From Diacronema lutheri (lineage: Eukaryota; Haptophyta; Pavlovophyceae; Pavlovales; Pavlovaceae), in contig JAGTXO010000071.1 in NCBI GenBank assembly GCA_019448385.1, positions 62,001 through 126,000 of the forward strand: 64,000 bases of DNA, written 5' to 3'. Position numbers and translations under genes: made by a program. Below, one piece after another: positions 7,200 through 48,171 of this stretch; the stretch's first letter is position 1; every line of letters begins with the position of its first letter. The notes under the pieces are model-generated. The model did not search any database. It saw only the letters and a list, made by a program, of their open reading frames with translations, and had not been told where the DNA came from.

Positions 7200-7250
7200 G
7201 GCGAGTTCGGCGGCACGTTGGCTCACTTGGGCTCGGTGCGCGGCTCTGCC

Positions 7251-7283
<33 letters not shown>

Positions 7284-8531: not shown

Positions 8532-9404
8532 GGCGCCGCTTTCCAAAAGGGTGTAGGGTGTAGGGTGTAGGATGCAAAACAAGCCCTCCCCACATTTGGG
8601 CCCGACGTCATTCCTTCTTCGAAGCCGTGACGTTACTCACATACGAGTACCTTTACTTAGTGTAGGATGTATCTATTCTCTAGGTATTTGCATAGTGTAG
8701 GGTGTAGGATAAGTACGGTTATGAAAGTCCCATAGGGGGGAGAAGGAATGACGCTGTGACGAAAGAAGGAATGACGTCGGGCCCAAATGTGGGGAGGGCT
8801 TGTTTTGCATCCTACACCCTACACCCTACACCCTTTTAGAAAGCGGCGGCGCCTCGGAGCATGGCGGCTCGACAGCATGGCGCCTCGACAGCATGGCGTC
8901 GTCCAGCGTGGCGTCCAGGATGGCGACTGCGCCCGGGCCGTGACGCCGCGACGTCGTTCGGCTGCGTCACGGAGGAGCGCCATCCGTGCGCCACGGAGGA
9001 GCGGCAGGACCACGACGCGGCGTGACGCTGGACGACGCCATGCTGTATAGGCGCCATGCTGTCGAGCCGCCATGCTCTGAGGCGCCGCCGCTTTTCAAAA
9101 GGGTGTAGGGTGTAGGGTGTAGGATGCAAAACAAGCCCTCCCCACATCTGGGCCCGACGTCATTCCTTCTTTCGTCACAGCGTCATTCCTTCACTCCCTG
9201 TAGGACTTTCGTAACCGTACTTATCCTACACCCTACACTATGCAAATACTTAGAGAATAGATACATCCTACACTAAGTAAAAGTACTCGTATGTGAGTAA
9301 CGTCACGGCTTCGAAGAAGGAATGACGTCGGGCCCAAATGTGGGGAGGGCTTGTTTTGCATCCTACACCCTACACCCTACACCCTTTTAGAAAGCGGCGG
9401 CGCC
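8532..9404. repeat. Nested giant palindrome built of two MITE-like inverted repeats (copy 1)
   Basis: Two elements of about 320 bp (8532-8853 and 9081-9404) each have long terminal inverted repeats that begin GGCGCCGC...AAAAGGG and continue through three GTAGGGT heptamers into GATGCAAAACAAGCCCTCCC. The second is the reverse complement of the first. The 230 bp between them is itself an inverted repeat (CGGAGCATGGCGGCTCGACA facing its complement), centred near 8955. The whole 870 bp can therefore fold back on itself. Its base composition is much lower in GC than its surroundings. It lies between the minus coiled-coil gene and the plus helicase gene, so it could be nested MITEs, a replication origin, or a regulatory hub. 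Both element copies carry it. Confidence 0.85.
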
Positions 9405-9498
9405 TCAGAGCATGGCGCCCGCCCGCTCGAGCCGGACCTCCGCGCAGCCGGACTCGCCCCGCCCCGGGCTGCTCTGGCTGGGCGACGTCGTGCGCGCC

Positions 9499-9870
9499 TC
9501 AGAACGCCGCGCTCGCCACGCGCACGTAGCCCTCGTCCGGGTCCGGCTCGGGCGCCGCGTCGCGCACCGAGCGCGACGCGGCCTCGACGCCCGGCGTTTC
9601 GGCACGCGAGGCGACGGATGCCTCGTCCGGCCGGCCCCACGGCAGCTGCAGCTCGAGCTGGCGCTGGATGATGCGCGGCGTCGCCACGCGCCCGTGCTGC
9701 ACCTCGCGACGTCGCGCGCGCACGTAGAGCACGATCGCCACCGAGCCGCTGAGGCCCATCATCGCGCCGAGCAGCACCGAGATTGTGGTCTCATTGTCTG
9801 CTTGGGCGCGAACGGAAAACGCGCGAAGGGTGGCGACGAAGATCGTTGGGTTGGGTTGGGCCACCGGCTC
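9499..9870 (-). CDS. Small single-TM protein of the element (copy 1)
   Basis: The frame ends at 9499. A clear membrane helix (TTISVLLGAMMGLSGSVAIV) is followed by a basic stop-transfer stretch (RARRRE) and a tail of about 75 residues rich in charged residues, ending DEGYVRVASAAF. Before the helix lies FVATLRAFSVRAQADNE, which could be luminal. The frame stays open upstream into the helicase 5' region, but the likely start is not clear and an upstream exon is possible. I recognise no family. The same frame is present in copy 2. Confidence 0.45.
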   Translation of the reverse strand, partial: EPVAQPNPTIFVATLRAFSVRAQADNETTISVLLGAMMGLSGSVAIVLYVRARRREVQHGRVATPRIIQRQLELQLPWGRPDEASVASRAETPGVEAASRSVRDAAPEPDPDEGYVRVASAAF

Positions 9871-9973
9871 CCGAGGATTGCTTGTGGCGCTCGACTGACC
9901 GTTGGCCCAGCTTTTTTTTTTCTCGAACCTACTGTGGAGCCGCCTGCAGCGTGATCTCCCGCGCACAACGACC

Positions 9974-12500
9974 ATGGCCGCCATCGACCTGCGCGCCTTC
10001 GACGCGGCGCTCGTCAACTGCGAGATCGTGAGCACGCGGCCGGTCAAGCCGAGCGAGCAGGCGCGCACGGTCGACAAGCTGAGCTACGGGCCGTCGCGCC
10101 GCGCGCTCGCCTTCGTCTCGCCGCCCTGCGTCGTCGACTGGCCCGAGCTCACGGGCGACGGCAACTTTGGCACCATGTACGGGCCGACGGACGTCGACAA
10201 GGCGGCGTACACGGCCGGCGTGACCGACAAGGAGCTGCCGATTGAAGGCGCGCCGCTCGCGCAGATGGACGCCTACTTTGGCGCCCTGCGCGCCATCGAC
10301 GATCAGCGCGTCGAGACGGTGCACGCGCGCCAGAAGGAGCTGCTCAACACGCGCGGCCTCTCGAAGGAGGAGGTGCGCGGCAAGCTCTCGCCCGCCGTCA
10401 AGCCCAAGTACGAGGACGACACGCTCGCGCACACGCGGCTGAACATGTCGACGCGCACGTTCACGTGGGCGGGCTCCGAGCGCGTCGTGCCGCTCGTCGA
10501 CGCGCGGCGCGAACCGGTCGACGAGATCCGGCACGAGGACGTCTGCGCCATCGCCACGCAGCTCGACCGCGTCTACACGGGGCTCACGGGCTCGATGTTT
10601 GGCACCAAGTGGAACGTGTGCGGGGTCATGCTCCTGAAGCGCGCCGAGCAGCGGCCGCAGCCCGGCTCGGACGCCTTCGCCTCGTACGGCGTGCCCGCCT
10701 GGGCCGACACGTTCGACTCCACGGGGCTGTACGTGCCCGACGAGCGCGAGCGCGCGGCGGCGCTCGCGGCGGTGGCCGGTCTGCGCACGGCGCGCGCGCC
10801 GGCCGGGCCGGGCGGGCGCGAGCTCGCGCGCGCGCAGGGCTACCATCGCGCCGAGCGGGCTGCGAGCGCGGCGGCGGCGCGCGCGGCGATGGCCGAGGGC
10901 GGCCAGCAGTGCGCGCTCCACGGCGCGGTCGTCAAATCGGCGCTGCGCGGCGTGGGCAACCGGCTGCATCTTTGCGACGCGCCGGGCGGAACGGGCAAGA
11001 CGTTCGTCGAGCGCGCCATTATCGCCGCCGTGCGCGCGGATGGGCACGCGGTCGTCGTGGGCGCGTCCTCGGGCGTCGCCGCCACGCTGCTGCCCGACGG
11101 CCGCACCTTCCACTTGACCTTCAAGGTGCCCGGCGGTGCCGACTCCGACGGGCAAGCCGTTCAATGGCGTGCCGCGCTCCGAGCGCGGGCGCTCCCTGGC
11201 CGCCGCGGCGGCTGGTCGTGTGGGACGAGGCGCCGATGCAGACGCGGTGCCACCTCGACTCGCCTGATCGGTGTTTGCGCGACGTGACGGGCGTCGACGA
11301 GCGCTTCGGCGGCGAGACGCTGCTGCTCGCCGGCGACTTTCGCCAGTGCTTGCCGGTGGTGCGGCGCGGCTCGCGCGCGCAGATCGTGCGCTCCTGCCTC
11401 AAGTACTCGGCGCCGTGGCAGCACGATCGGCAGCACGCCTTGGTCGAGAACGTTCGCGCCTCGAGCGCGGCGCGCGACACGGGCGACGCGCTCGGCGCGG
11501 GCGAGTGGGCGGAGCTGCTGCGCAGCCCCGGCGACGGCGCCGTTCCCGCGGCGGTGCCGGCGGCCGGGGCCATGCCCGGCGCATTCCCGCTCGATCCCGT
11601 GCAGCTGCCCGAGGCCGTCGGCGGCGTCCCCATCCGCGTGGGCTCGGCCTACCCGACGGAGCTCGTGACGACTTTGTCCACGGCGCGACGTGTTGGACCG
11701 ACGACGGCTCGCTGTGCGACCGCGCGGTGCTCTGCGCCAAGCAGACGGACGTGGCGCGGATCAACTGGCTGGCGATCGGCCGCTTCCCGGGCGCGGCGGC
11801 GAGGTGCGCGTCGGCGGACGAGCTGGCGCGACGACGGGGCGGGCAAGCAGATTGCGCGGGCGTCGGTCGAATTCCTCGACTCGCTCGAGCACGCGCAGAT
11901 GCCGCACCGCGTCCTCGACCTGAAGCCCGGGATGGTGGTGATGCTGCCGCGCAACCTCTCGCCCGGCGAGGGGCTGTGCGGCGGCACGCGGCTGATCGTG
12001 CGCGGCGTGCGCGCCGGCGGCCGGCTGCTCGAGTGCGCACGCCCCGGCGCGGCCGCCGGGCGCGACAGCACCGTGCTCGTCGCGCGTGTCGACCACCACT
12101 CGCCCGACGACGGCACGTTCGCGCTTGTGCGGATGCGCCGCCAGTTCCCCGGTGCGGCCGGCGTAACGAGGCGCAGGGGCAAGCGCTCGGGTGCGCGGGC
12201 GTGTGGCTCGCCGAGCCGTGCTTCACGCACGGCCAGCTCCACGTGGCCGCTTCGCGCGTCGGGCACACGTCGCGCGTCCGCTTTGCGCTCGGCGCGGACC
12301 TCGTGACGCGCAGCGTCGTCTTCAAAGAGGTGCTCCGCGCGGTCAGCGGTGGCGAGGCGGCGGCGGCGGCGCTCGCCGCGGCCGCCGTCGCCGCCGCGCG
12401 CGAATGCGCGGCGGCGGCGCGCGGTGGCGGCGGGCGCGGACGGCGCGCGCGGCGCCGGCGGCGGGCGGCGCGCTGGCGGCGGGCGCGCCGCCGGCGCGCG
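9974..12500 (+). CDS. ssDNA-binding-like domain joined to Helitron/PIF1-type helicase (copy 1)
   Basis: The ATG at 9974 has a good context (ACCATGG). Residues 1-230 resemble the ssDNA-binding-type proteins of giant viruses (DUF5871-like): an N-terminal part with GDGNFGTMYGP, a helical middle, and a C-terminal strand pair ending FGTKWNVCGVMLLKR. This match is by eye only. The helicase follows: Walker A in DAPGGTGKTF, motif Ia SSGVAATLLPDGRT, motif II VVWDEAPM, motif III GDFRQCLPVV with RGSRAQIV, then LKPGMVVMLPRNL, GLCGGTRLIV, and C-terminal THGQLHVAASRV and VVFKEVL. The last motifs are typical of Helitron helicases. The motifs are spread over three reading frames in a few steps, the same in both copies, so the gene is either spliced in an unusual way or broken. 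No Rep nuclease precedes it. Expected role: DNA unwinding during element replication. Confidence 0.7.
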
Positions 12501-12509
12501 GTGCTGGCC

Positions 12510-13873
12510 AGCACCCGCCGGCGCGACGCCCGCCGCGCCGCTCGCGCCGACGCGCAGCCGTCGGGTGCTCGCCAGCACCGCGCGCCGCGCGACCGGCCCG
12601 CGTACCTGCGCGCCCTTCTAGGGCGCGCAGGGCGGCGCCAATGCGGCCGGCGCGCAGGGGCCTCACGCTGGCGCGCTGCCCGCCGCCGCGTGGGTCGCCG
12701 CTGCGCGCGTGCCGTCGGCGCTGCCGCCGCCCGGCGTCGCGCTCGCGCCGCAGCCGCAGCCGCCGCCGCCGCCGTCGCCGCCGCCTGCCGCCTGCCGGCA
12801 AGCTGGGCAAGTGCGCAGCGGCGGCGACGGCGGTGCGCGACCCGGCGAGCAGGCGGCGCGCCGCCGAGCCGGGGGCGGGCTCCGTGGGCGACGAGGCTCG
12901 CCCGCCACTCGCACTACTCGCGCGCCAAGTGCGCACAACGCGCCCCCCCCCCCCCCCACCCCACCCCCCGATGAATTTAATGCTCATACCATGGCGTCGC
13001 GCCACGGCAGTACGCCCGTGGCCCCGGCGGCCAGCCTCGCGCCGCTACGCCGTGTCGTCGCGGCCGGCGCACACAGCGAACTGTGTTTCCGCGGCACATG
13101 CCCGGCTGCTCGCGCGCTGCAAGCTTGCCGAACTGCTCGCGCTGGAATGGCGCGTTGCGGGCGTGCCCGCGCACCGCGCGTGTGCCATGCGCGTTCCGGG
13201 AGCGCCGCGCCGCGCGCCAAAGCGGCGCGCGGCGGACGTGCGGCCTCGGGCCGAAGAGGGGCCGGCGCGACCGGCCGCGAGGCGGGCGCAGACGCTCGGC
13301 GTGCCGGTCGATGCGTCGTCCAAATCCGCGTCGGGCGGATGCGCGCCTGGGCCGGCGCTGCGTGCAGTCGGCGGGGCCCGGCCACGCGCTCGGGCGTAAC
13401 GTTCGCGCCTGTTCGGCCGAGGCGCACTCGCCGTCCCCTCGCGCCGGCAACGTGCGTGCGGGCCAGCACGCAGGCAGCGTACGATGCCACGGCAGCGGCG
13501 AGCGCGTCCCCGCCGGTGTGCCGCTCGGCGCCCCGTCACGCGCAACGTGCGCGCCGCCCGCTGCATGCGCACGCATACGCGCGCTGGCAGCGTGCGCAAA
13601 ATTGCCCGGGCAAGATCGTCCCGCGCTCGCGCCGCCGACGCATCATTCCATGTGTCCGTTTCGGCATCTGCCACCATCCACCAGCCCTCGAAAGCCGGCT
13701 TGCGCGTGGGCGCCCGTCCGGTGCGAGAAGCGGCTCGCGTCCTCGCGCGGGGCGCCTCCGCGCCAGGCGCCCGGCGCGCGCTCGTCTTGCCGCGCCACCA
13801 CGCTGATCTGCGCCCAACCCTCGCTCGCCAATTCCCCCGTCGTCCCTGCTGCGCAGCCCGCAACAGCGCGCGC
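12510..13873. other. Element interior without an assignable gene (copy 1)
   Basis: Very GC-rich, with a C15 run at 12943-12957 (C22 in copy 2). Open frames exist on both strands. One minus-strand stretch (about 13580-13720, reading WWMVADAETDTWNDASAARA) looks more like protein than its neighbours and may be an exon, but no gene model could be built. ATGs at 12990 and 13484 on the plus strand could belong to an extended 5' part of the protease gene. Confidence 0.3.
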
Positions 13874-15542
13874 ATGGCGCGTGCACGGCGCGGCGCCTTG
13901 AGCAAGTTTTACGTCGTCGGTCGGCAGCCTGTGGAAGACGCGTTTGACGGCCCGATGTGGCCGGTGAGAGTGCCCGGCGTGCCGCGTGGTGAGCGCCTGC
14001 ACGGCTTGCCGGGCTCGGCGCGCGCCCAGCCAGCCTCCCTCCATCCCGCCGCAAACCGTGCGTGCGCACCCCGCACACCCGGCGCTGCGCGGCGCGGCGC
14101 AGGCGCGAAAAACGAGGGCAGCGCGTGCTACACGACCGTCCTTATGCAATCGCTCTTCGCCCTGAACATGCTCCGTGCGATGCTTCGCTCCGCTTCGCGC
14201 CGTGCCAACAGCGTCGAGAGGGCGCGTTTTCGGGACTTTGGCACGCTGATCGAGGACACCAGGGCGCCGACACGGCTGTGTCTTGTGTCCGTCATCGACG
14301 TCATCTCGGGCCGTGGCGCGCGAAGGACGCCGCAGGATGCCGCTGAGTTCTTCCGGTTGCTGCTCGGCCGAGTGCCCGGGCTCGCTGCGGCCTTTGAAGC
14401 CGACACACGCGTCGGGCCAGTGCTCGAGCAGATCGCCGTGCCTTCAGAGGCCGGCGAGGGCATCGCCGTACTCGTCAGCGTCGGCGGCGATGCGGCGCGC
14501 GCGCTTGCACACGCTCTGGGGGGCGCCGCTGGGCCGCCGCGGGATCGCCACACGAACGCGGGCCACTCGGGCGTGCTCACGCCAGCCAGCATTGCTGTCG
14601 AGGCGCCGCGCACGACGCGCGGCAATGGCTCGCAGTGCAAGAACAACCGCGCGCTCGTGTGCGCGCCGCGGCTGCTGCTCGGCGGGCGCGACCACCTCCC
14701 CGTCGCCGGCGTGGTGCACGTGGGCGAGGGGCCGATGAGCGGGCACCTTGTCGCCATCGTGCTCCGCAACGAGGCTTGGTTTCCGTGCGACGACTACAAC
14801 GTGCGGCGGCGCGCACGGTCGCTCGGTGCCGCGACCGGCGGTCGAGCGCAGCCGCGACCGCCCCGTCCTCCCGCGCGGCACGCGCGCGTGGCCTGAAAGC
14901 TCGCGCGCGCGCCTGCCGCACGCACGCGCGTTGCCCGCGCAGATCTACAACGTGCCTGAGTCCGACGCGCTGGCGTGGGCAAGTGGTGCGAGCATGCTCG
15001 TTCACAGCCGGCTCGACGTGGAGCCGTTGGACCCGGCGCTGGGCTCAGCGTCACCGCCGTCGGCCGCATCGCCTGCGTGGCCGAGCTCGGAGCCCGACGC
15101 GCCGACCTTGCCGGCAGCCTGGCCGCGGGTGCGGCAGATGGCAGCGGTGCCAACAGATGCGACGATCGGCATCGCGGAGACGGCTGCAGACATCTCTACG
15201 GCGGCGATCGGCCCAGCTGCGTGCGAGGCCCGCCAAGTTGTCTCCGTGACGCGCGCATTGCCAACAGCGGTGAGTGCGTCCTCGTCTCCGGCGGCCGCTG
15301 TGCCCCCCCCCCCCCCCCCCCCCCCCCACACACACACAACTCTCCCTACCTTCTTCCTCCTTTCGCACCTCGCACGCGCACGCCGTCCGCTGTCCGCTGT
15401 CCGCGGCCCAAATTGCCTTGCGGAAGCCGAGCAGGCAGAGCCCTGCTTGGATGGCTCCAGCGCGCATCTTGTGGATGGCGACGCTGTGGGCGAGCACGGA
15501 CGCTCAAATGTGACCAGTGGCGCGCACGTGCACGTGCGCTAA
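13874..15542 (+). CDS. USP-type ubiquitin carboxyl-terminal hydrolase (peptidase C19), copy 1
   Basis: Cysteine protease expected to remove ubiquitin or ubiquitin-like proteins. The Cys box reads NEGSACYTTVLMQSL, the family's N-x-x-x-x-CY-x-x-x-LQ-L form. QDAAEFFRLLL is the typical QDA-EF helix. The His box is SGHLVAIVL with W..CDDYN after it, giving Cys, His and Asp. Exons: 13874-14800, 14943-15269 and 15435-15542, for 453 aa. Splicing at 14801-14942 restores DDYN-IYNVPESDALAW, the expected USP C-terminal strand and helix (SMLVHSRL). Intron 2 has a GTGAGT donor and contains a C25/(AC)n tract. In copy 2 that tract is 5 nt longer, which would break the frame if it were coding. The domain is short, about 250 residues between boxes, without long insertions. 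The start is the first ATG near the Cys box; an upstream exon is possible. Confidence 0.75.
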
Positions 15543-15898
15543 CTGGACGTCGAGCGTGTGCGCCTTGTCCGCACGTGTGCACTCACGTGCGTCTGCGGCG
15601 ATCTGCCCGGCGTAGTAGTCCGCGCGCGCGGGAGCCGCGTCGGCAGTAGGAGCAGGATAACGTACTTGCGCCTGACGAGGACGGCGAGAAGTGCGGCTTT
15701 TCGCTCGGGGTCTACCATGCCGCCGAGGTTGGCGCTGGCGCGCGTGAGGCAGTCGGAGCGCGCTGGGCCCGGGTTGAAGGCCTCACCCCGGGGGACGGGA
15801 GGATTCAAGGCGCCGAGCCGCTGCGGGTGCGGCGGGAGGCCCCGGGCGGGTGTGCTAATGCGGCTCGATGGCCGCCTGCCGGGGGGGGGGGGGGGGGG

Positions 15899-15941
<43 letters not shown>

Positions 15942-16339
15942 GGGCCGCCCGCGGAAACGGAGGTGAGCGTGTGGGAGCGGCGCGCGTCGGCGCGCGCGGC
16001 TGGCGTGCAGCACGGATAAGTCTTGTGTGGACTTCGCGGGGCGGATCCCGGTGCAGGGATTGCCGACGTAGGCCGCGAGCGCGAGCAGGGCGGGGATGAA
16101 GACGGATGATGGGGTTGGGGCCAAGGCCGCCGCACCCGCAGCTATCACGGTGGCAGCGACCGCCACGGTCAGTGCGAGGCTCGCGTGGCCGCTGCGCGGG
16201 CAGCTCGCCCGCCAGGTCCAGGAGGGCCGGCCTGCGGCCTCAGTGCCCAGCGTTGGGCATGTCAGCGTCTGCGTCTGCGGGCCCGCCACTGCGATGGCGC
16301 ATTGAGCCTGGCGCACCAAAACGCAATCGGTCCGCCGAT

Positions 16340-16379
<40 letters not shown>

Positions 16380-16990
16380 CGAGGCGTGCGCGGGGGCTTG
16401 GGGTGGGCTCCGGGTGCCGGCGCTGTGCCAGCGGCGGGCTTGGTTGACGCCGTCTCGCCGGGGCCCTTGCGCCTTGCGGCGCGAGCGTCGCGGAGGGGCG
16501 TCGGCTGCGCTGGCTCCGCGTCGGCGGTGGCGTGGGGCAGGCTCTTGTGGAGGGCGGAGTGCTCGCGCACGAGTCGGTTGCCAAGGCGGGCTGTCTGCGT
16601 GCCGTTGGGCTGCGCTTGGGCAGGTAGGACCTGCGGCCTCGGGGGCGGGCGGGTTTTCGTGTTGGGCCAGGCGGCAACGCGCACCGGCCGTGTTCGCGGC
16701 CGGCAGGCGGACGTCCGCAGCGGGGCGGAGAATGCGGGTGAAGCGCTTGCACGGGCGCGGTTCGCACCTGGCGGCCAGGCGATCACGAACCGTTGGGTCG
16801 CCCGGCTGTTTGGTGGAGCCGAGGGCAGCAAGGATAGCGAGCTTGGCCGCCTCATCGGTGACGAGCGGCACTGTTGCCCAGCTCTGTACCTCGAAGCCCT
16901 GGATGTGCAGGCGTCGGGGAAGTTCCCGGCAGCGTCGCCTGCGTCCGTCGAGAGGCGGACCGAAGTCGCGCCCGTGCCCCCGTTGGCGAC
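15539..16990 (-). CDS. Membrane protein of the element, spliced (copy 1)
   Basis: Three stretches on the minus strand read as protein: about 16930-16740 (GFEVQSWATVPLVTDEAAKL), 16250-16020 with two hydrophobic helices (SLALTVAVAATVIAAGAAAL and SSVFIPALLALAAYVG), and about 15815-15539 (NPPVPRGEAFNPGPARSDCL, then RRKYVILLLLPTRLP). A junction from TQDLS at about 16018 to a CCCGCAG acceptor near 15816 keeps the frame. The intervals between the stretches hold the long C-tracts (C on this strand), which fit intron pyrimidine tracts. The stop TAG at 15539-15541 overlaps the TAA of the protease gene on the other strand. No family recognised; 5' exon unknown. Confidence 0.45.
15881..16379. repeat. Long G/C homopolymers (G20-A-G38 and G39)
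   Basis: Runs at 15881-15939 and 16341-16379, with a G18 run at 17748-17765. They lie in predicted introns of the minus-strand membrane gene, where they read as C. Lengths differ slightly in copy 2 (18/38, 38 and 17), the only common difference between the copies. Confidence 0.9.
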
Positions 16991-17824
16991 ACCGAGCTCT
17001 CGCTCGTTCACACCGGCCCGCCGACGCGGGCGCGTGGTGCGCGCGCGTTGGGTGCGTGTCTGCCTCGAGCAGCGTGCCCAGTCGCAGTGTGGGCGCGTGT
17101 CCGTCTGCCTCAAAACGCCACGTGGAGGGGAAGGCGCGGGGCGGGCTCGCCGAGGAGGTGCCGCCGCTCGCTGCCACCCGGCGCGGGCTCGGGGCAGCCG
17201 TCTTCGGGTGCCGCGCTCTTCGCGCCATGCACGAACGTTCCGCCGCGCTCGCAGCGCGCGAGCGCACACACAGAGCGCGCGGCGACCCCGGCGGGGGCAG
17301 TGCGTCCCGGTGGCACTCGCGGGCGCGCGCCTGGCCTGGGCGCAGCTGGGCGCGTTGCCGCCCGCGCAGCGAGCCGCCCGCGCGCCTCGCCGCGCGCGCG
17401 CTTCGTCGCACGCGTGCGCCCTGCATGCACGCGCACAGCGCGCGGCGGCTCGGCGCAGTGCAAGGCAGAGCGTGCTGCAACGGTTGCGAGGGCGCGCACG
17501 CGCGGCGCGGCGCGCCCCTGTGTGGTCGCCTGCGCGCGGCGCGTGGTCCGGACGCAGCTCGGTGGCGTGATGCCGTTCGTGCAACACAGTGCGCGTGAGA
17601 GCCGCACGTGCACACCTGCAGTGCAACGCGGCATTGCGCGCGTTGCGTGGGCGGAGCGCGGCTGGATGTGCTTGAGGTCGCGCAGCATGCCGCGCGCCGC
17701 GCGCTGTGCGGCGCAGCGAGTCGGCCATGCCCCTGGTCCTCGTCTCCGGGGGGGGGGGGGGGGGGTGGTGGTGGCAACCAGGATCCGCCAGCGCGTGGTG
17801 GGCGCCGTCCAACTCCCAGCCAGG

Positions 17825-17967
17825 ATGCGCCCCGTTCTTCCCCGACACTCTCCGTCCAAACCCGCCGCCCAGCCTGCCGCCGCACCCGCCGCCAACGCCG
17901 CCGCTGCCGCCGCCGTGGCCGCGCCGCCACCGCCGCCACCGCCGCCGCCGGCCGGCGACGCGGGCGA

Positions 17968-18046
<79 letters not shown>

Positions 18047-21000
18047 GCCGCGCGCACGTTCTTGAAGCTCGCGCCCAGGGCGCGCGCGGCCGCCTCGGCG
18101 CGTGAGGCGTTGCGCGCCGCGTGTGCGCGCGCGGACGCGGCGGCGTCGTCACACGCGTCGGCGCCGCACGCGCCCGCCGGTTCGCGCCGCCGGCGGCGCG
18201 CGGGCGCAGGCGAGCTGGCGCTCGCGGCTGCGCGCGCGCTCGCCTCGACGGAGCACGGCGATTTGACGGACGACGCGCTCGAGGCCGCCGTCGAGCAGGA
18301 GCTGGGCGACGAGCGCGGCCAACTGCTGCTGTGCACGCGGGGCGCAGCGGCGCAAAGGCCCGCGCTTTGCCGGCTCCTGAAGCACGCGTGCGCGTCGGCG
18401 CGCGCGGCGAAGCGCGCGCAATTCACGGTGTTCGTCGTGCGCGCGGCCACGCGCGGCGAGCGGGGGGGCGCCGCCGCGAGGCGCGTGGACTCGGTGGTCG
18501 AGCTGTCGTGCGCGCTGCACGAAAAGGCGGGCGCGCTCGGCGGCCTCCAGAGCGTCTGTGTGCGTGGCTTTGCCCTCGAGCGCCGCCGGACACTCGACGG
18601 TGGCGCCGAGGCCGGCGCGTCCGCCATCGGCCAGGACGAGCAGGTCGAGGCAGAGGCGGGCGAGGCGTCCGTCGCCGGCGTGACGATGGCCAAGCAGCTG
18701 CGTCAGTTTGCCGAGCAAGTTGCCCGCGACGACGTGCTCTTCCGCGTCGCCGTGTCCGAGGCCGACGCCCACGCCCGGCTGGCGCGCGTTGCGGGTGACG
18801 ATGTCGGCGCGTACAGCGTCGTGCTCGCAGTCGCCGGGCTCGTCTGGCTGGCCAAGGCCGACGAGGTTGCGCCGGCGGCCGCCCGGTCCGCCGCCGCGCC
18901 GCCCGCCGCCCCGCCTGCTGCCGCCACGTCCGCCGACGCCGAGCGCGACGCCTCGCCTTCCGACCGCCTGCGCGCGCTGACGCTCGCCGTGCGAGTCGCG
19001 CTCGCGCGCGGCGTGCTGCGCCACCTCCTCGCCGACGCGTCGCCGGGCGCGTCCGCGACCGCTGGCGGTAGTTGCGCGACGCCCGTCGAGGCGGCCACGT
19101 CCGCCGCCGCGCCGCCCGCCACGGGCGTCGTGACGAGTGGCGTCGCGGCGGGCGCTGTGGCGGCCGCACCGGCTGCTGCGGGCGGTGCGACGGCGGGTGC
19201 ATCGCCCATCACGCGGCCGGCGAAGCGCGCGCGGCGCACGCTCACCGCCGCTCCAGCCGCCTCGGCCGTTGCGGCCGCTGGAGGCGCACGCGCGGGCGCA
19301 CGCGGCGCGGCCGGCGCGCCTCGCGCGCGCGCCGCGCGCGCGCCGGCCGAGTACGTCTGGCTTGCCATCGCGCGCCGGATGCTGGCGGCGCGACACGCGG
19401 CGGCCGCGGGCGGCGACTTTGTCGCGTCGTGCGTCGCCGCGATGCAGGCCGAGTACGGCGACGGCTGTGCCGTCGTCGTCGGCGACGCGCCTGATGACGC
19501 CTTGGTCGAGGCTGCGGCGGCGGCGCTGCTCGAGGGCAAGCACGCGGCGGTGAGCCTCGGCTGCGTCGACCGGCCGGCGGTGCTCGTCGTGCAGCGCGCC
19601 GTGGACGCGCCCACGTCGCGCGTGCACGGGTGGTGCGCGCACGCGGCGGGCGCCGCCGAGTTTGACGAGGGCGCCGCGCACGGCGTGTTCAACGCGATCG
19701 TCGAGCGCGCGTGGGCGCTGCGTCCGGACCCGGCTGACGGCAGCCCGCCGCCCACGCGCACGTGGGAGGTCGAGCAAATCGCTGGCGACGCGCCCGACCA
19801 GGCGGGCGTGGCCGCGCTGCGCGTGCTCTACGCGCTCGTCGCGGCGCACGGCCGCTACCGCTCGGCCGCCGCGCTCTTTGGCGCGCTCGCGCAGCTGCAC
19901 GCGCCCGACGCCGCCGGCGCGCGCGCGGAGGTCGTCGCGGCGGCGTGCGCGGTGCCGCACGGCGCGCGGCCGGGCGCCGCGCCGGCGGCCGCGCGGGACG
20001 ACGCGAGGGAGCGCGCATGGGAGGGCGCTCAGATCGCCGCGCTCGCCGTCGGCGCGGACGCTGCGCGCAGGCGTGTCGCGCCCGTGCGCGCGCTCGTCGA
20101 CGCGCTCGGCACGCCACCGACCTCGGCGATCACGGGCGGGCCGGCGGTCCGGCTCGCGGGCGCGGGCGACGGCGGCCACGGTGCACGGTGGGTGGGCGGG
20201 CAGGCGGCGACGCCCGCCGAGCAGCTGCCGAGGGAGCTGCTGCGCGCCTACCACGAGGCGGTGCTGTGCGTCACGCCCGGCAGCCTCCAGCTCGGCCCGG
20301 CGGCGCTCGACGCGGTCACGCGGCCGCGCGAAAACGACACGCTGGAAGGCCTCCTCGCGCGCGTCAGCTGGCAGTGCGGCGCGAGGGCGAGCACGTGCGC
20401 CATGCTCGCCACGTTTTCCGAGCAGGCGGGCACCGGCTCGCGCGTCGCGCTCAAGGCCCTCCGCACGAGCTCCGACCTGGCCGGGCTGACGGCGGCTGCG
20501 GTCGGGCAGCAGGCGCCGCAGACGCCGCCGCCGCCGCTGCTCGTGATGCTCGGCCGCTGCCCCAGCCCGCTCGTCGGCGGCGGCCTCTTCCCGCCCGACC
20601 GCGCGACGGGCGAGCCGGCGGTGCACGCGGCGACGTCCGAGCTCGCCGTCGAGCTGCTGCGCGACGCGCGCGCGCTGGCCGGCACGGACGGGCGGCTCGT
20701 CGTGCTGTGCCTCGAGGCGTCCAACCCGCTCTGGTTCTGCCCCAAGGTGCGCGAGCTCGAGCTGCCGCGGACGCGGTCGGACGGCGTGCGCGCGTCCGGC
20801 TGCACCTGCCCTGCGACGTGCAGCGATGCGCGCGGCGCGGCGGGTGGCGCTGCCCGCGGCGCATCGACGCGGCCGGCGGCGCGCGCGATCAACAAGGCGG
20901 TGCTCGACCACTTCGTCGCGCTTTTCGGCCGCGAGGGCTTCGCGACCTTTGAGTTTGCGGGCGGCGGCGAGGCGAGCTGGCTGTGCGACAGCGCGGCCGG

Positions 21001-24000
21001 CAAGACGACCGTCGCGGCGTGCGCGTCGCTCCCGCCGCGCATGGGCGATGGGCAGCTGGCCATCCGGCGGCACACGCTCGGCACGGGCGCCGACGCGCCG
21101 GCGCACGCCGTCGTCTCGCTCCGCGTCGCGCACGTGAGCCACGCCATCCGCCGCGCGGCGGACGACGGCGGCGCGCGCGCCGAGCGGATGGCGCGCGCCG
21201 CGCGCGCGTTTTGCGATGTGGCGGCCGCGCTGCGCGTCGACGCGATCCTGGCGGAGGTGCCCGAGGACCGCCCGACGGGCACGCCCTTCCTTGGCGGGCT
21301 GCTCGAGTTTTGGAACAAACGCCACGGGAGCTCGACGGCGCCAGCCACGCTCGCGCTCGGAGACGTGCGCGAGGTGGCCAAGCGGACGGCCGACGCAGCG
21401 GCCGGCCGAGCGGACGAGGTCCCTGCGGCTGGCCGTCCGCAGGTCGCGGCGCGCGCGTGCGCTGGCGCGATTGGCGGCGGCGCGGGCGCGGCGGGCGCCT
21501 CGGACGCTGCGCCCCGTGCACTGGCGGGCGCGTCGGGTGCGCGCACAGACGGCGGCCCTGCCGACGCACCGCGCCAGCTGGAGAGCCGCTACGGCGAGGC
21601 GAGCAAGCTCGACCTACCCCAAGATTCCACTACGGGCTGCGTCCTCGACGCTCGCGAGGCCCAGGACCGCGCGCGCGTGCCTGCTGCGCCCGACGGCACA
21701 GCGCTGCGCCGCGTGCTCGACGCCGTCGGCGCGGGCGCGCCCGCGCAGCGCAGCCCGCGCTGGCACGACGAGCGATGGGAGGAGGTCACGGGCAGCAAGG
21801 TTGGCGACGTCGTGAACGACAACGCCGGCGTCGCGCACGAGACGCTCACCGACGAGTACGTGCACCGGCGGCGGCGCGAGGTGCGGACCAAGGCGACGAC
21901 CGCGGGCATCCTCGGCGAGGCCGTCGCGCTGCGCAAGCTGGCGGCCGCGTACGGCATCACCGTCGTGTGCAACCTGCCGATGGTGCGTGCGGACCCGCAC
22001 GACAAGAGCGCGCCGTTCGCCTTCTCGCCGGACGGGCTCGCCATCCTCCCCGAAGACAACGAGCAGGTCCTCGTCGAGGTGAAGACGCTCACCAAGGCGG
22101 ACGCCAAGGCGCACGAGGACGGGCCGTCGCAGCCGCACCGCGATCAGCTGCAGCTCGGCATGCACGTCCTCGGCGTGCGCAAAGCGCTCTACGTGCAGTA
22201 CCTCAGGCACGAGGACCGGATCGTCGTGCACGTCGTGACGCGCGGCGCCGGCTGGCTTGCATTCGCGCAGCCGAGGGTGCAGGCCTTCTGGGCGCGCGTC
22301 GTCGAGCGGCGCGCGCGGCTCGAGCGCGCGCGCGCCGACCACCCGGCTGCGAGCCGGCGGCACCGGCGGCAGCAGACGCCGGCCGGGCCGCCGCTCGTGC
22401 TCGCGCTGGACGGGCGCATCCCCGCCGCGCGCGCCGCCGCGCTGCACGCCGTCGCGCACGGCGCCGCGAGCGCGGCGGCGGTGGCGGCGACGGCGGCGAC
22501 GGGCGACGCGACGGCGTTGCAAGACGCGATCGCGGCGCTGCGCGCGCCCGTCGGCAATGCGGCGATCGACAGCGCAGCGCGTGCGGAGCGCGCGGCCGTC
22601 GAGCGGGCGATCGCGTACCTCGGGCAGCCGGCAGGCGACGCCGCCGCCCGCGGCACGGCCGAGGCGGCCGAGGAGGAGAGGACGGTCGACGCCGACATCT
22701 GCGCGTTGCTGCACCAGCTCGGCGCGAGCGTGGCGCACGTGCACGTCGAGGACGCGGATTGCGTCACGCGTGAGCACTGGGGCGGGGCGGTGCTCGCTGC
22801 AGCGGGCGACCCGTCGAGCGCCCCCGCCATTTCGAGCGTCATCGTCGCGCACATCGTGCGGCTCGCCGGCTTTGGCGTCGAGCTCCCGCAGTCGATTCGC
22901 GTCGCCCCCAGCACGGCCGACTGGCACGAGGGCTGGCTCGACGTGCAGTGCGTGCTGCTGCGCACGCGCCGGCGCGGGCGGCGCGACGACGACTTTGTGG
23001 CCGTCGTCAGGCGCGGTGGGCGCTGGTTTGCGTGCGAGCCCGGCCGCGCGCGGCGGCTGCAGTGGCGGTCGGTCCTGCGCCGCGCGCGCGGCGGCGTCGA
23101 CGGGACCGGCGAGGAGGCGTTCGCGGTCGTCTACGTGCGGCGCGGCGACGCGGCCGGCGACGCGGCTGGCGACGCGCAGGCCGAACGGGCGCGCGGCGGG
23201 CGCGCGCGCAGGCGCACGCGCGGCGGCACGCGCAAGCGCAAGCGCGGCGCCTCCGCCGGGCTCGAGGCGGCCGCGCCCGCCGGCGCGCCGGCGGGCGCTG
23301 CTCACCGCCCGCCCGCCAGGCGTGCCACGGTCGCCGCGCGCACCACGCGCTCTGTGACCGACGCGCGGCACTCGGCGCCTGCCGCCACGGTTGCACCTGT
23401 CTTCGACTGGCGCGCCGGCCGCCCGCCCCCTGCCGCCGCCGCCGCCGCCAAGCGCGGCCAGGCGCTCGAGCCGGGGCAGTTCGCGCGGCCGCGTGGGCGC
23501 GCGCCATGGGGCAAGGTCTGGGACAGAGTCTCGGGTGCGTGGGCGGACAAGCCGACTGGTGCTGCCGTCGCCGCCGCGCCGCCGCCGCTGCCGCCCGCCG
23601 CCGCGCCGCCGCCCGCCGCCGCGCCGCCGCCCGCCGCCGCGCCGCCGCCCGCCGTCGCGCCGCCGCCCGCCGCCGCGCCGCCGCCCGCCGCCGCGCCGCC
23701 GCCGCCGCCGCCACCGGCGGCGCTCGGCCGCCGGCAGCACGTCGGCGCGGGCGGCAGCGCGGCGGGCCGGCGGCTCGCGGCCATCGCACGGCGGCAGCGC
23801 GGCGTGCGCGCGCCGCCGCCCACCGCGCGCTTCCTCGCCACGCTGCCGCCACCGCCACGCGACGGCCTCGCGCGCACGAGCAAGCAGGCGCGCGCGAGGC
23901 GCAACGCGGACGGACGGCCGGCGCACGCGCGCGCGGCCAACGCGCGCGCCTTCTACCGCGGCGTGGAGCTCGGCGTGCACGCGACGCGCGCCATCGTCGA

Positions 24001-27000
24001 CGCGCGCCACGCCGACCTGCCGCAGGCCGTCTTCGTGGCGGAGGCGCGGGCGATCGTCGCGCGCTCCGCCGGCGGCGGCGCGCTGCTCGCGCCGGACGAC
24101 GTGCGCGACCTGTGCGACGCGCAGACGGACGCCGATCGCGCTGCGATCTGGGCGTCGGTGGGCGCGCACGAGGCGACGCGCATCTTCGCGCTCGTCACGC
24201 GCAACGCGAGCTTGGCGGGCGCGGCGCTGCTCGTGCTGCACACGCCGGCGGGCGCGCCGGCGCGCGCGCTCGGGCTCGTGGCGACGCGCTCGCGCGCGCC
24301 GTCGACGGGCGCGCCGCGCGACGCGCACAGGGCGCTGGTGCAGCGGTTGGACGTGCTGATGGACGCGATCGCCGCGGCGCGAGGCGCGTCGCCGCTCGAG
24401 CTCGAGCTCGCGCTCGCGCCCGAGCCGCAGAGCGCGTGCAACGCGCGTGCGGCCGCGCTGCTCTGCCTGCAGGCCGTCGCGGACGCGAGCGGCCGTCCCG
24501 CCGCTGAGGACGCGCTGGCCGCGCTCGACGACGCGCGCGGCATCGACCGGCACTGCCACGCCGTCCGGCAGCAGATCGAGGCGAAGCTCGCGTGGCGGCG
24601 CGCCGACGGCGCCGTCGGCGTTGACGGCGCCGACGGCGCGCCCGCGCTCGCGCCTGCCGCCGCACCGCCGGCGTGCGCGCCGGCGCACGCTGCCGGCGAG
24701 GCGGCGGTCGACCAGGCGATCGTCACGCGGGTGCGCGACGCGCTGCGCGCGTGGGCGACGACTGGCACCGCGCCCAGCGCGGCGGTGCTCGACGACGCCT
24801 GCGCCGCGTACACGGCCCGCGCACGCGCGCGCAAGGACGCGCGCACGGCGCTGGGCCCGACGCGCGCGGCCGAGCTGCTCGCCGCGGCCGCGCGCGGCGG
24901 AGCCGACGGGGCGGATGCCGCGCGCGCGCTGCTCGGCGGCACGCCGCGCCTGCTCGTCGTGCTCCTCTGCGTGCCCGTCGCCGCGCCGTCCGGCGAGCCG
25001 CCGCGCCCGGTCGGGCTGCTCGTCGCCGACCGGCCGACGGACGACTCGCGCCCGGCCGCGCTCGTGCGCTACGACTTTGCGCCGCTCGACGCGGACGTGG
25101 CCGTCGCGGTCGGCGCGCATGCCGTCGCGCTGGCCAGTGCGATCTGGCCGCTGCTCGCGGCCGAGGGGGAGCCGCGGCCATCGCCCGTCGTGCGCTCGCA
25201 GCCGCGCGGCGGCGACGATGGCGCGCGTGCGCTCGCAACGTTCGCGTGCCTCGACGCGCTGATGACCGCCAGCGTCGGCGCGCACGGCCTCGCGGGCGGC
25301 GCGGGCATGCTGCCCGCGCTGGTCGCGCGAGGCGCCGCGGCCGCCCAGCGCGAGCGGCAGCTGCGCGCGGCCGCCGAGAGGCTGGGCGGCACGGTCGCTG
25401 GGTGGCCGGACACGGGCGCGAGCGCGGCGGGCGCGAGCGTCGACGAGGAGGCGCGCACGTACGAGGTCGAGGCGGTCGTCGACGAGCGCCGCAAGGCGGG
25501 CAAGAAGGTGACGTTCCAGTTCCGGATCAGGTGGCGGGGCTACGACGAGAGCGCCGACACGTGGGAGCCTGAGGCCAACGTGAGCAGCGACCTCGTCGCC
25601 CAGTTCCGCAAGACGCGCGACGAGCAGAAGCGGCGCGCGGGCGTATCGGGCAGCGGCAGCGGCGGCGCGGGCGCGGCGTCGGCATTGGCGTCGGCGCCGC
25701 TTCGCGCGCACGGCGAGTCGGGCGCCGCGGGCAAGCGCGCCGCGGCGGGTGCCGCCGCGAGCGCGCGCGACGCCGCGGGCGCGCGCGCGCCGAGCGTTCC
25801 CCGCGCGCGCGGCGTCGAGCGCGCGCGCGTGGACGAGCCCGCTGCGCCGAGCGCGCGCGCCGCCGGCGGCGCGACGGCGCGCACGCGCGTCAGCGTGCTC
25901 CCGGGCTTCGTGGTCAAGCGCTCGACGCTCAACGCGGGGCCGCAGGCGGTGACGGCGCAGCCCGGTGCGCGGAAGGAGCTGCGGCGCATCGCGGCGGCCG
26001 TGCACAGGCTCACGACACAGGCGTACCGCGTCATCAACAAGGTGGTGCGCGACGAGGCTGCGGTGGCGAGCGCGCAGGCCGTCGGCGCGGCGTCGGGCGG
26101 CCCGTCGACCAGCGTGCACACGTCGACCACGATGGACAAGGGAACCGTCCGTGCGATCTTCTCGGCCATCGGCTGGCACAAGGACGAGAGCACGTACGGT
26201 GCAGCGCCCCGAGGCAAGCCCGCCGAGCAAGCCGCCGCGCAGACCAAGGCGGCGACGGCGCGCGCCGTCGGCGAGATGGCCGAGGGCGTCCAGCCCGTCT
26301 GCGCGGTGGGCCTCACGGAGATCCTCGAGGCGGAGGCGACGCAGGTGTCCACCGCGTGCCTGATGCATCCATCGCGCGTCGTGAACGGGCTGCTCCGCGA
26401 CGTCGTCCGCGCGGCAGTCGAGCGCGACGAGGCGCTCGTCGCGCTGCCCGAGATGCAGCGAAACGCGCGCGTGCGCGAGCTGTGCGAGCGGCTGCTGCGC
26501 GGCGACGTGGAGGGCGCGCGCGTCGGCTGCCCCGCCGCGCTCGACCGCCACCTGCCCGACATGGTCCTCCACAAGATCGACTACAAGTGCACGCCCACGA
26601 AAAGGTGGAACTACGACCGGCACACGACGCGCTACTTCCTCGTGCAGATCCGCACCCTGCAGCACGTGGCCGAGGGGCAGGCGCTGCTCTGCCGGCTCGC
26701 GCACATCCACACGCAGCTGACCGGACGGCCGCCGCGGTACAATGTGGCGCCGCTGCGCACGCACAATGTGCGCGCGAGGCGTGGCTGCCGCTGCCGCCGC
26801 CGAGGGCCCAAGCGCGCGCGCGCCGCCGCCGTGCGCGCCGCCCCGCGGCCAGGTTGGTCACGCGCCCGCGCGCTCGCGCGCCGCGCGCTGCGCGCAGGTG
26901 CCGCGCAACGTGCGCTTCGCCGCGAGCGCCATCTGGGTGACGCTTTCGGATGACGAGCGCAAGGAGCTGCGCGCGCGGCTCAAGGCGCTGGACCTGCGCG

Positions 27001-28622
27001 ACCACGATGGCGAGCCGATCAAGTGGACAGGCACAAACGGCAACACCCCGCCGATGTCGGACGTGCGCGTCAGGTACGCGGTCTTTGCGACGCGCTTCGA
27101 CATCTCCAACCGCGTCTTCGACTACGCCGGGCGCGAGCGGCCGCCGGCCGATCTGCCGTGGCACGCGCGGCGCTCGTGGGTTGGCCTCGCGCCGCTGCCG
27201 CGCGTGCCGCTCCCGGGCCGGCAGCCCGTCAAGTCGGTGGTGACAGATGGCGTCGCCGTGCACGCCGTCGGGACCGTCCTCGTGCCGAAGGCGCAGGCGC
27301 CGGCCGGCGGCTCGGGCGTCCTGCACCGCTGGCGCCGGCCGGACGGGCGCATCGCCGTCGCGCTCGGCTCCGAGCTGCGGCGGGCGATCGACGTCGAGGC
27401 GGCGGTCGTCGTCGCGGCCGACCCGAACATGGGCAACATCACCACCTACTCTGCGCACGTCGGGCGGGCGGCCGTCTGGCGGCAGTTCACGCAGCGCGCG
27501 CGCGCGCGCGCCGCGGGCTTTGCGCGCGAGACGGCCAAGACCAACGCGGCGCGGCGGCGCGTGCGCAAGGACGGGCGCGGCGAGGAGTTCAGCGTGGAGG
27601 CGGACGAGGCGCGGCTTGGCGAGGCGCACAGCGCCAAGGTGCTCGGCGAGGGCGAGTTCCACGCCTTCCACCGCGAGAGCGCGCGGGTGCGCGAGCGCGC
27701 CGCCGAGCACGTGTACGACGCGCCGGCGCGCCGGAAGGAGCGCTGGCGGCGCGACAGCGGCGGGCGGTCCAACGCGGCGCGCGTCGCCGAGGCGCTCATC
27801 GCGGCGCACTGTGTCGACGGCGTGACGCGCGACCGGCTGCTCGTGTGCGTGGGCAAGTGGCTGCGCGACCACAAGGGCGCGCAGCCCAAGGGCGCGCCGC
27901 CCGCCTTCCAGGTGGGGCTGCTGCGCGAGCTGCGGCGGCGCGGCGTCGCGGCCGTCTTCGTGCCCGAGCCGTACACGTCGATGCACTGCTCGATGCCGCG
28001 GCTCGCCAAGGGCGGCAGGCTGCAGCGCTGCGGCGCGGAGCTCGCGCAGAACCCGCGCCTGCCCGTGGCAAAGGGCGGCACGCGCACGGTGCACGCGCTC
28101 GTCATCTGCCCGGCGTGCAACGGCGGCAAGAAGCCCGTGCACCGCGACTACAACGCCGCGCGCAACATCTTCTACGACGTGCACGACATGGCGGCGCACG
28201 CGGCCGGGCGCGACACCACGTCGACGCCTGAGCGCTTTGCCCTCGTGCTCGCCTGGTGGGCGCGCGGCGAGGTGTGGGAGCGTGAGGAGCGCATGGTGCA
28301 CGGCGAGGGCGACGACTGCGACGACGAGTGCGACGGCGACGACGAGGGCGACGACGAGGGCGACGACGACGACGACGACGATGGCAGCGGCGACGGCGGC
28401 GGCGGCGAGGGCGACGGCGACGGCGACGGCGACGGAGGCGGCGGCGGCGACGACGACGATGACGGCGGGGGAGGCGGCGGCGGCGACGGCGGTGGCGACG
28501 ACGGCGGCGGGCGCGGCGGCGGTGGCGGCGGCGGCTCTCGCGCCCGCACCCCCGCCCGCGGAGCTGCCAGCGCCAGTGCCGGCGGCGGCAGCGCGCGCGG
28601 GCCGAAGCGCGGCCGGCGTTGA
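17825..28622 (+). CDS. Giant fusion protein: YqaJ exonuclease, chromodomain, Fanzor1 nuclease
   Basis: Exons 17825-26767 and 26898-28622 give about 3,555 aa. The 130-nt GT-AG intron joins PLRTHN to VPRNVRF, the continuous Fanzor/TnpB motif, so the splice is well supported. Order: Pro/Ala-repeat N-terminus (long GCC run at 17970-18040); a large region of unknown fold with scattered Ulp1-like fragments; YqaJ-type exonuclease (about 21745-22310); proline repeats PPPAA (23575-23725); two more unknown globular parts; chromodomain (25456-25630); Fanzor (25900-28330); and an Asp/Gly low-complexity tail ending KRGRR, a likely nuclear signal. The ATG at 17825 is the first after a G18 run; the frame is open further up, so the start is uncertain. 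No stop interrupts nearly 9 kb, strong evidence for selection or very recent origin. It could be processed into separate proteins, since protease genes lie in the element, but that is inference. Confidence 0.8.
21745..22310 (+). other. YqaJ-like (lambda exonuclease family) domain within the giant protein
   Basis: Starts QRSPRWHDERWEEVTGSKVG, the family's QRSxEW...R...ITASK opening. Then GILGEAVALRKLAAAYGI (the G-E helix), the catalytic core SPDGLAIL with VLVEVKTL (Asp, Glu, Lys of the PD-(D/E)xK fold), HRDQLQLGMHVLG and ALYVQYL. All active-site positions are present. Such enzymes chew 5' ends of double-stranded DNA and work with annealing proteins in viral and phage recombination. Confidence 0.8.
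25456..25630 (+). other. Chromodomain within the giant protein
   Basis: YEVEAVVDERRK, FQFRIRWRGYDESADTWEPE and NVSSDLVAQFRK match the chromodomain consensus. The aromatic-cage positions Tyr, Trp and Trp are kept, so it could bind methylated histone lysine. It lies about 90 residues before the Fanzor N-terminal part. Chromodomains on transposon integrases are known to steer insertion to marked chromatin. Confidence 0.85.
25900..28330 (+). other. Fanzor1 (TnpB-type RNA-guided nuclease) domain
   Basis: The N-terminal part has LPGFVVKRSTL and a helical lobe (HPSRVVNGLLRDVVRA, VLHKIDYKCTPTKRWNYD). After the intron comes the RuvC core: Asp in VVAADPNMGNITTY (codon 27420-27422), Glu in FVPEPYTSMHC (27966-27968) and Asp in HRDYNAARNI (28146-28148). 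The zinc finger uses MHC, QRC and ICPAC cysteines, inserted between RuvC-II and -III as in TnpB. LLVCVGKWLRDHKG is the usual helix before RuvC-II. The catalytic set is complete, so it looks active. Known Fanzors use an RNA coded at or past the end of their ORF. Confidence 0.88.
28316..28530 (+). repeat. GAC/GGC trinucleotide-rich tract
   Basis: Codes for the Asp/Gly tail of the Fanzor protein. It is unlike the rest of the gene in composition, and its length is probably variable. Confidence 0.7.
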
Positions 28623-29038
28623 CGCACGGCCGAGCCGCGCAGCGGTCGACGCTTTGCGGGCTCTGCCCAGGTCGCGCGCGGCTGGCGACGCGTGCCGCGC
28701 GCGGCACGACCGTGCACGCCGCCACCCGTGGCCGAGCGCGCCGCACCAGCCGGCCCGCTCCAACCGCCGTGCGGATCACGGACGCTCGCTACGGCTCGTC
28801 GGCGCGCGTCACCTGCGCCGGCGGCCACGGCGCCGTCTGCTCCGGCCTCGTCGCGAGCAGCCCGACCGCTGCTCGCCGCCCGCACGCCGCCGCAGCAACG
28901 CTGCGCGTCGTGCTCCCCCGCTCGCCAAACGCGAAGAGCTCCCTCACAAGGACGTCCTTCCGAACGGCCCGCGCTGCACTCGGGGCGCGATCGTGCCCCT
29001 GATCGGATTTGGCTTGACCATCTATACATTTGACTGCG
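28623..29038. other. Gap after the Fanzor stop; expected place of element right end and guide RNA
   Basis: About 360 bp of GC-rich sequence, then a lower-GC stretch at 28985-29038 that fits the 5' UTR of the next gene. In known TnpB/Fanzor loci the guide RNA overlaps or follows the nuclease 3' end and its guide comes from the flank at the element right end. I cannot identify a scaffold fold or the exact boundary by eye. Confidence 0.3.
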
Positions 29039-48015: not shown

Positions 48016-48171
48016 GGGGCGCGGGTTGGGTCCGGGGGTTGTTTGTGAGCTGGAAAAGGGAACGGACTAGTTGTCATTGGAACTTCCTTTCGAGGGAGCG
48101 CAACCACTTAGAATGTCGGATGCACTATATACGGCGCGGTCCGGGCTGGTCCGGCCAGTGTAAGGCTGAGA

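Follow-up and report, generated by a model that had tools for sequence, protein, structure and literature searches.

A high-copy mobile element of the haptophyte Diacronema lutheri with a giant frame for an exonuclease domain, a chromodomain and a putative Fanzor1 nuclease

Introduction

Fanzors are known as fairly small, transposon-borne nucleases whose native role is little known. They cut DNA beside a short motif under the direction of a guide RNA, most Fanzor1 (Fz1) proteins have 600-700 residues, and the Fz1 target motifs known (TTAA, CATA and ATN) are AT-rich (PMC11423790). Many transposon types carry them, DNA transposons have often picked up Fanzor1, and Sola2-Fanzor elements have 4-bp AT-rich target duplications (PMC3627910). 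Here we describe a giant gene that occupies the 3' half of a mobile element present in some two hundred copies in the marine haptophyte alga Diacronema lutheri, starting from a 64,000-nucleotide stretch of contig JAGTXO010000071.1 (C2:62001-126000), which we call the window and in which two copies of the element lie. Along the product of the gene follow a lambda-exonuclease/YqaJ domain, a chromodomain and a Fanzor1-type nuclease. With confidence slightly better than even, we favour the reading that this ~31.0-kb element bears a giant three-domain gene near its 3' end and that its protein product, processed in part or not at all, serves the spread of the element.

The closest described systems each share one side of this arrangement. 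Like SpuFz1, GtFz1 and PpFz1, the D. lutheri protein has the D-E-D pattern, a four-Cys zinc finger followed by RD and an AT-rich flanking motif, and its gene rides in a mobile element, toward the 3' end; unlike theirs, its frame extends upstream for thousands of codons via a chromodomain and an exonuclease. ISL2EU, of the PHIS superfamily, is likewise a eukaryotic transposon with a YqaJ exonuclease domain protein, but there the YqaJ open reading frame (ORF) adjoins a DDE/THAP transposase (PMC4482050), whereas in D. lutheri YqaJ lies in the Fanzor frame and no DDE transposase stands beside it in the ORFs scanned. The Helitron2 elements CRe-1 to 3 of Chlamydomonas are likewise algal mobile elements with Fanzor1 (PMC3627910). 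Helitrons encode a Rep-helicase protein, and the D. lutheri element, too, has a helicase, of PIF1 type, but no Rep domain was found with it: the single genome-wide match to Helitron_like_N, on contig C63, does not recur with the element. Nor do any of the 16 genome-wide matches to Phage_integrase, the tyrosine recombinase expected of a Crypton. Chromodomains occur in the polyproteins of Ty3/gypsy-type elements or joined to integrases, as in adintoviruses (PMC6338049, PMC11071296); in D. lutheri the chromodomain instead precedes an RNA-guided type of nuclease. Searches with Pfam, PHROGs and NCBIfam, covering the ORFs scanned (some short ones left out), found no transposase, integrase or reverse transcriptase, and Pfam found no protein-primed polymerase, integrase or capsid protein of the Polinton type there, though diverged capsids could escape. 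Fanzor-bearing transposons, YqaJ in ISL2EU, and chromodomains in integrases and long terminal repeat (LTR) elements are already known; what appears new is the Fanzor-YqaJ-chromodomain frame. We found no report of a Fanzor-YqaJ combination in the open-licence literature, and no Fanzor-chromodomain fusion in those parts of it that were available.

The giant frame and its three domains

The window contains an open frame of 3,359 codons (16874-26953), and direct translation from the ATG at 17825, across one intron, to the stop at 28622 gives 3,555 residues (Table 1). An earlier note, made from the letters alone, had proposed this product with its coordinates, its 130-nt intron and its domain order, and translation and profile matches bear out all four. 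Its choice of start holds in part: the ATG is present and yields the 3,555 residues, but the N-terminus that it opens is the product of a deletion, and longer copies of the element differ there.

Table 1. Features of the window and one further locus (positions are those of the window unless a contig is named)
Feature	Position	Strand	Basis
Element copy 1 (22.4 kb) with an internal deletion; ends TATATAGGGCGCGG (5') and ...TTGACCATC TATAC (3')	6607..29027	+	ends common to other copies; deletion against the C12, C37 and C9 copies
Long inverted repeat, arms ~380 nt, spacer 115 nt	8531..9402		same in copy 2 at 50124-50995
PIF1-type helicase domains of copy 1, the frame differing from one to the other (intron or frame change)	10907..12000	+	transferred from copy 2 by ~41,593 nt
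UCH/USP-type protease ORF, 470 codons, copy 1	13484..14896	+	PF00443, 3.6e-8, on copy 2 ORF 55084-56496
Exon 1, starting at ATG 17825	17825..26767	+	ORF listing, direct translation
Internal deletion junction, ~8.5 kb missing against longer copies, GCC-rich	17872..17904		overlapping alignment ends, sequences
Lambda-exonuclease/YqaJ (RecE-like) nuclease domain	21737..22312	+	phrog_434, TIGR03033, PF09588
Chromodomain	25460..25612	+	PF00385; matches to solved chromodomains
Putative Fanzor N-terminal half, within exon 1	25895..26767	+	continuity with exon 2, position
GT-AG intron, 130 nt, phase 0	26768..26897	+	donor GT 26768, acceptor AG ends 26897; copy alignment
Exon 2: Fanzor RuvC and TNB zinc domain, then acidic/glycine tail	26898..28622	+	PF07282, three-sequence profile search, motif
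3' noncoding element end with GGGGC...GCCCC hairpin; candidate guide RNA place	28623..29022	+	sequence
Element copy 2, continues past the window	48126..64000	+	11.3 kb at 99.8% to 6626-17904; 5' end
1,339-codon ORF upstream of the giant frame, copy 2; deleted from copy 1	59886..63905	+	ORF listing
Second Fanzor family, example locus	C1:154701-154928

Three profiles bear on the exonuclease domain. PHROG 434 (RecE-like) matches it at E=3.5e-15 and upholds the YqaJ assignment of the earlier note; the lambda-exonuclease model TIGR03033 (E=2.7e-5; 24.3 bits, far under its curated cut-off of 68) and PF09588 (YqaJ; just E=0.041, under the Pfam cut-off) do not reach their thresholds. The sequence contains GE, SPDG, EVK and HRDQLQ, which we take to be the catalytic E, D, ExK and Q residues of YqaJ/lambda exonuclease, and profile match and catalytic residues together identify the domain as a putative member of that family. 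An AlphaFold2 model of residues 1165-1818 of the window frame, made without relatives, was unusable, with a mean predicted local distance difference test score (pLDDT) of 36.3.

The chromodomain was also named in the earlier note. PF00385 (Chromo) matches it at E=3.8e-12, with 46.4 bits against a cut-off of 25.1, and among solved structures the best match is CDY-like (5.2e-9), with HP1 at 4.3e-7. It occupies residues 2863-2913 of the window frame, and the Fanzor N-terminus lies at residue 3008. No Met stands between the two, the nearest being Met 2812 and Met 3087, so that a Fanzor with that N-terminus must begin upstream of the chromodomain. The chromodomain-Fanzor connection is on this ground the strongest and safest link of the fusion, and the exonuclease appears joined to the remaining domains through the unbroken frame.

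Pfam gave no match of its own for the N-terminal half of the Fanzor. Within 25900-28330, where the earlier note had placed the nuclease, PF07282 (the Fanzor/TnpB zinc domain) matches at E=2e-6, with 28.3 bits against a cut-off of 26.3, and the NCBIfam model guided_TnpB matches just at E=0.026, under its cut-off. A three-sequence profile compared with solved structures matched Cas12f1 (3.7e-5) and, weakly, the Guillardia theta Fanzor1 (0.033); the same search with a single Fanzor sequence gave no significant match. Bao and Jurka described the Fanzor1 motif as D-X(125,275)-[TS][TS]XX-C4 zinc finger-X(5,50)-RD (PMC3627910), and a pattern search finds it here. Its acidic residues are D at 27420, E at 27966 and, in RD, D at 28146, and TS-x-x-C and four Cys are likewise present; the motif residues are D468, T653, C657, C671, C697, C700 and RD709-710. 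The catalytic core thus keeps its Asp, Glu, Asp and zinc-finger Cys, as the earlier note had read. The putative assignment to Fanzor1 rather than Fanzor2 rests on the GtFz1 match and on the location outside an IS607-type element.

A second, more typical Fanzor family occurs in the same genome, accounting for 14 of 148 genome-wide Fanzor matches (43.9-44.5 bits; loci L001-L008). No YqaJ or chromodomain match was found within 1.5 kb around each of these loci or in 7.6 kb upstream at one of them, so that, in the stretches read, the fusion is not the rule for Fanzors of this genome.

The intron, too, is supported. When the exons are joined the junction reads PLRTHN-VPRNVRF, and a 2-nt insertion lies within the intron in three of 11 aligned copies (those of C6 and C37 were not extracted by the exact anchor), which argues for splicing because the insertion would break the frame if translated. 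The length of the frame exceeds chance, since none of 600 simulated sequences built on the same stretch reached it: against ~3,040 codons observed, the longest frame in any of the six was 1,800 codons in 300 order-1 Markov sequences and 2,098 in 300 of order 2. G+C is highest at the third codon position in every 250-codon block of codons 1250-4500 of the long frame of the fuller copies, and long low-complexity stretches separate the domains.

The mobile element

Exact element ends were sought throughout the genome (43,492,796 bases in 103 contigs), with 217 found for the 3' side and 210 for the 5' side. Pairing, which took 100 of the 3' ends with 99 of the 5' ends, gave 68 elements, 31 of them ~31.0 kb long, 12 of ~21.5 kb, 12 of 28.5-30.5 kb and 13 of other lengths. 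The exonuclease domain has at least 150 genome matches at 97-100% identity (the best 150 of 235 candidates). Among the best 150 of 260 candidates for the chromodomain, the top four come from other sequences, while the remaining 146 have scores of 53.7-55.2 bits; for PIF1, about 120 of the best 150 of 414 candidates score 89.7 bits, as do both window copies. By a rough estimate, in which bases were not counted, at least a tenth of the genome may consist of this family. The D. lutheri genome paper gives 22.9% repeats and names LTR and long interspersed (LINE) elements (PMC8379373), and the stem "transpos" is absent from its text as available.

At 11 of 12 distinct 5' ends TATATA is followed by C, G or T and then GGCGCGG, and 11 of 12 distinct 3' ends read TTGACCATC TATAC, the copy on C9 having TAACG instead. 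TATA may be the insertion target; no duplication beyond it was seen at element ends, and no empty site among the ends read. The exceptional 5' end, L054 (C2:30490-30512), lacks TATATA and is preceded by sequence resembling the element's own 5' part, as if partly duplicated. The 18-nt motif CTGACGTAAGCGCCGTTA (6588-6605) immediately precedes the 5' ends of copy 1 and of element copies on C3, C4 and C27, and occurs 208 times in the genome; our guess is a favoured insertion place or a promoter or terminator signal. At L044 (C3:177858) other upstream DNA runs directly into the element's final 310 nt (94% identity), probably in a relative of smaller size or in a copy truncated with its 3' end intact. 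The ~21.5-kb elements form a uniform shortened class; one of them, C5:257861-279430, is ~9.5 kb shorter and by profile matches retains PIF1, YqaJ, chromodomain and Fanzor zinc domain.

Seven of 100 listed 3' ends lie at most a few bases from where a contig ends and face outward (the starts of C1, C5, C6, C10 and C12; the ends of C3 and C8), compared with one of 100 listed 5' ends (C32 start). Assembly breaks should not favour one end of the element. A telomere-bound element was considered, since several contigs end at its 3' terminus. Among the places listed, TTAGGG arrays sit on other contig ends (the starts of C15 and C30 and the far end of C29), and for that reason we tentatively take the element-bearing contig ends as assembly breaks. 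There are no head-to-tail element junctions within 20 nt.

The window copy and its longer relatives

The two window copies share 11.3 kb at 99.8% identity, up to 17904. Copies on C12, C37 and C9 carry ~8.5 kb of extra sequence between the stretches that meet at 17872-17904 in copy 1, which is accordingly an internal deletion derivative, cut just after the ATG at 17825. Because this junction was made by the deletion, the N-terminus of the window frame, with its ATG and first residues, comes from elsewhere in the element. In the fuller copies the frame before and into the intron runs, stop to stop, for 4,506 codons (C12) or 4,612 codons (C37); frames of at least 4,000 codons occur at 111 of 150 scored places, and of at least 4,400 codons at 83. 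The giant gene thus has up to ~4,450 codons followed, after the intron, by a 574-codon exon, and the window derivative retains all three domains. The 1,339-codon ORF upstream, in a different frame, overlaps the start of the long giant frame. The ~31-kb transposon family, the deletion and the longer frames go beyond the earlier note.

The domains recur together. YqaJ and chromodomain lie in one open frame in 100 of the 111 copies in which both were scored and paired, and in 82 copies this frame has at least 4,000 codons. In a comparison of exon 1 among six long copies and partial ones, with C12 as reference, all shared insertions and deletions outside a proline-rich block are in frame (6 nt in four copies, 24 nt in four, 18 nt in three), and the gaps within that block, summed by hand, come to 33 nt per copy, also in frame. 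Those that break the frame are each confined to a single copy: L029, which lies at a contig end, has seven, L027 has one, C37 has a +1/-1 pair, and the window copy has one at its deletion junction.

A possible single protein and how it might act

In the reading that we favour, the chromodomain would tether the giant protein to modified histones, and the Fanzor would cut DNA beside a TATA-type motif with a guide read from the 3' end of the element, as Fanzors and TnpBs do; an AT-rich cutting motif is proposed because the known Fz1 motifs are AT-rich and TATATA stands at 11 of 12 distinct 5' ends. The exonuclease and the PIF1 helicase would then aid repair in which the element is copied back to its place or into the cut site. 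Lambda-type exonucleases resect DNA ends, methylated histone tails are bound by chromodomains, and PIF1 assists break-induced replication. Together these activities would suit upkeep of the element by cutting and recombination, and the combined cutting machine suggested in the earlier note is plausible. In its most specific form the idea is transposase-free, RNA-guided homing, in which a chromatin-tethered protein cuts through its Fanzor, resects through its exonuclease and leaves long PIF1-driven repair synthesis to copy the whole element into the break. We consider this version quite improbable; were it true, the element would be an RNA-guided, recombination-based mobile element and a natural counterpart of gene drive. 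More generally, if one protein is made, it points to concrete partners for a Fanzor, namely a helicase, chromatin targeting and end resection, and brings the role of Fanzors for their elements within reach of testing; it would also offer a natural nuclease-exonuclease-chromatin-reader design in a ~200-copy element of a cultivable alga.

Several observations weigh against a joint protein acting in this way. YqaJ and chromodomain lie in different frames in 11 of the 111 paired copies, so that the single frame of the earlier note, while present in most copies and followed across the intron by that of the Fanzor, does not hold for all. Codons 0-1250 of the long frame have a weaker coding pattern, and the share of synonymous differences among copies is near the neutral expectation, with no purifying selection visible, as expected of young copies. 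No transcript was seen, and one spliced mRNA with one uncut protein is a prediction from the frame. A search with the giant protein (2,523 candidates) found no relative with the fusion outside this genome, and two queries against IMG/VR found no relative. A search with exon 2 returned a 99% match (570 aa) and a 45% relative (527 aa), on ~2.4-kb contigs that hold no N-terminal part. A 425-aa EukProt protein labelled Pavlova lutheri spans residues 1177-1601 only and ends 20 residues ahead of the YqaJ match, which fits a fragment or a shorter gene. As to the guide RNA, none was found: Rfam at its gathering threshold gave no match in the whole window, the RNA fold of 28830-29027 is not significant (z = -1.5), and the 3' end of the element is not clearly more conserved than its coding part.

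Alternative explanations

A polyprotein would be the reading nearest to our own: a protease would cut the product into exonuclease, chromodomain-Fanzor and other parts, which would share a frame for the sake of expression and not of joint action. The element does carry a UCH-type protease ORF, has long low-complexity stretches between the domains and places two very long ORFs in succession. Against this, cleavage sites are not known, the usual targets of UCH/USP enzymes are ubiquitin links, and the absence of a Met between chromodomain and Fanzor means that these two at least are joined at translation. We regard full processing of this kind as less likely than our own reading, though not by far.

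Comparable in standing is the possibility that a DNA transposon with an unrecognised transposase (for example of the DDE type, with TATA as target) carries the Fanzor gene and the genes around it as passengers. The fusion would then have no part in movement, and the Fanzor would only keep donor copies. The capture of Fanzor1 by DNA transposons and the Sola2-Fanzor duplications, both cited above (PMC3627910), would suit such a history, as would TATA at nearly all element ends read. The profile searches of the scanned ORFs speak on the other side, as they turned up no transposase, though a highly diverged one could escape them, and so do the Phage_integrase and Helitron_like_N matches, none of which recurs with the element. 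Here again our view is tentative, and we lean against it.

Separate genes that happen to share a frame appear improbable to us. An upstream exonuclease gene would be followed by a chromodomain-Fanzor gene of ~1,060-1,076 residues beginning at Met 2797 or Met 2812 (25262 or 25307). Both Mets exist, and DNA of this G+C often holds long open frames, as a 1,716-codon antisense frame and the simulations illustrate, but no stop separates YqaJ from the chromodomain in 100 of the 111 paired copies and no simulated sequence held a frame so long. An assembly chimera or a one-off gene fusion, to which one might be led by the window copy being itself a deletion derivative, is very improbable and, for the domain order, is refuted by 100 paired copies, spread across many contigs, that show the same order within one frame.

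Other genes of the element and its surroundings

The helicase was identified in copy 2, where PF05970 (3.7e-14 and 1.5e-24) and Pif1_2B (5.4e-13) match the ORFs 51495-52880 and 52058-53899; in copy 1 a six-frame PIF1 match covers C2:73101-73550, that is, 11101-11550 of the window. For the part before PIF1, an AlphaFold2 model made without relatives was unusable (mean pLDDT 33.5), and a single-strand-binding protein in the ORF there was an impression by eye to which no profile lent support. The same holds for Ulp1-like proteases in the 1,339-codon ORF or the N-terminal part of the giant frame; Pfam, PHROGs and NCBIfam assign that ORF to no family.

Between the two element copies lie an ORF with an MrcB_N domain (3.9e-14; 33192-35720, minus strand) and tandem repeats of 33 nt (39080-39627) and ~12 nt (42116-42513). 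An ORF at 30511-31824 (plus strand) has weak matches to AAA_33 and Zeta_toxin-type kinases (3.2e-5 and 4.3e-5), and a 1,335-codon ORF at 44008-48015 (plus strand) contains fibronectin type III domains (1.5e-16).

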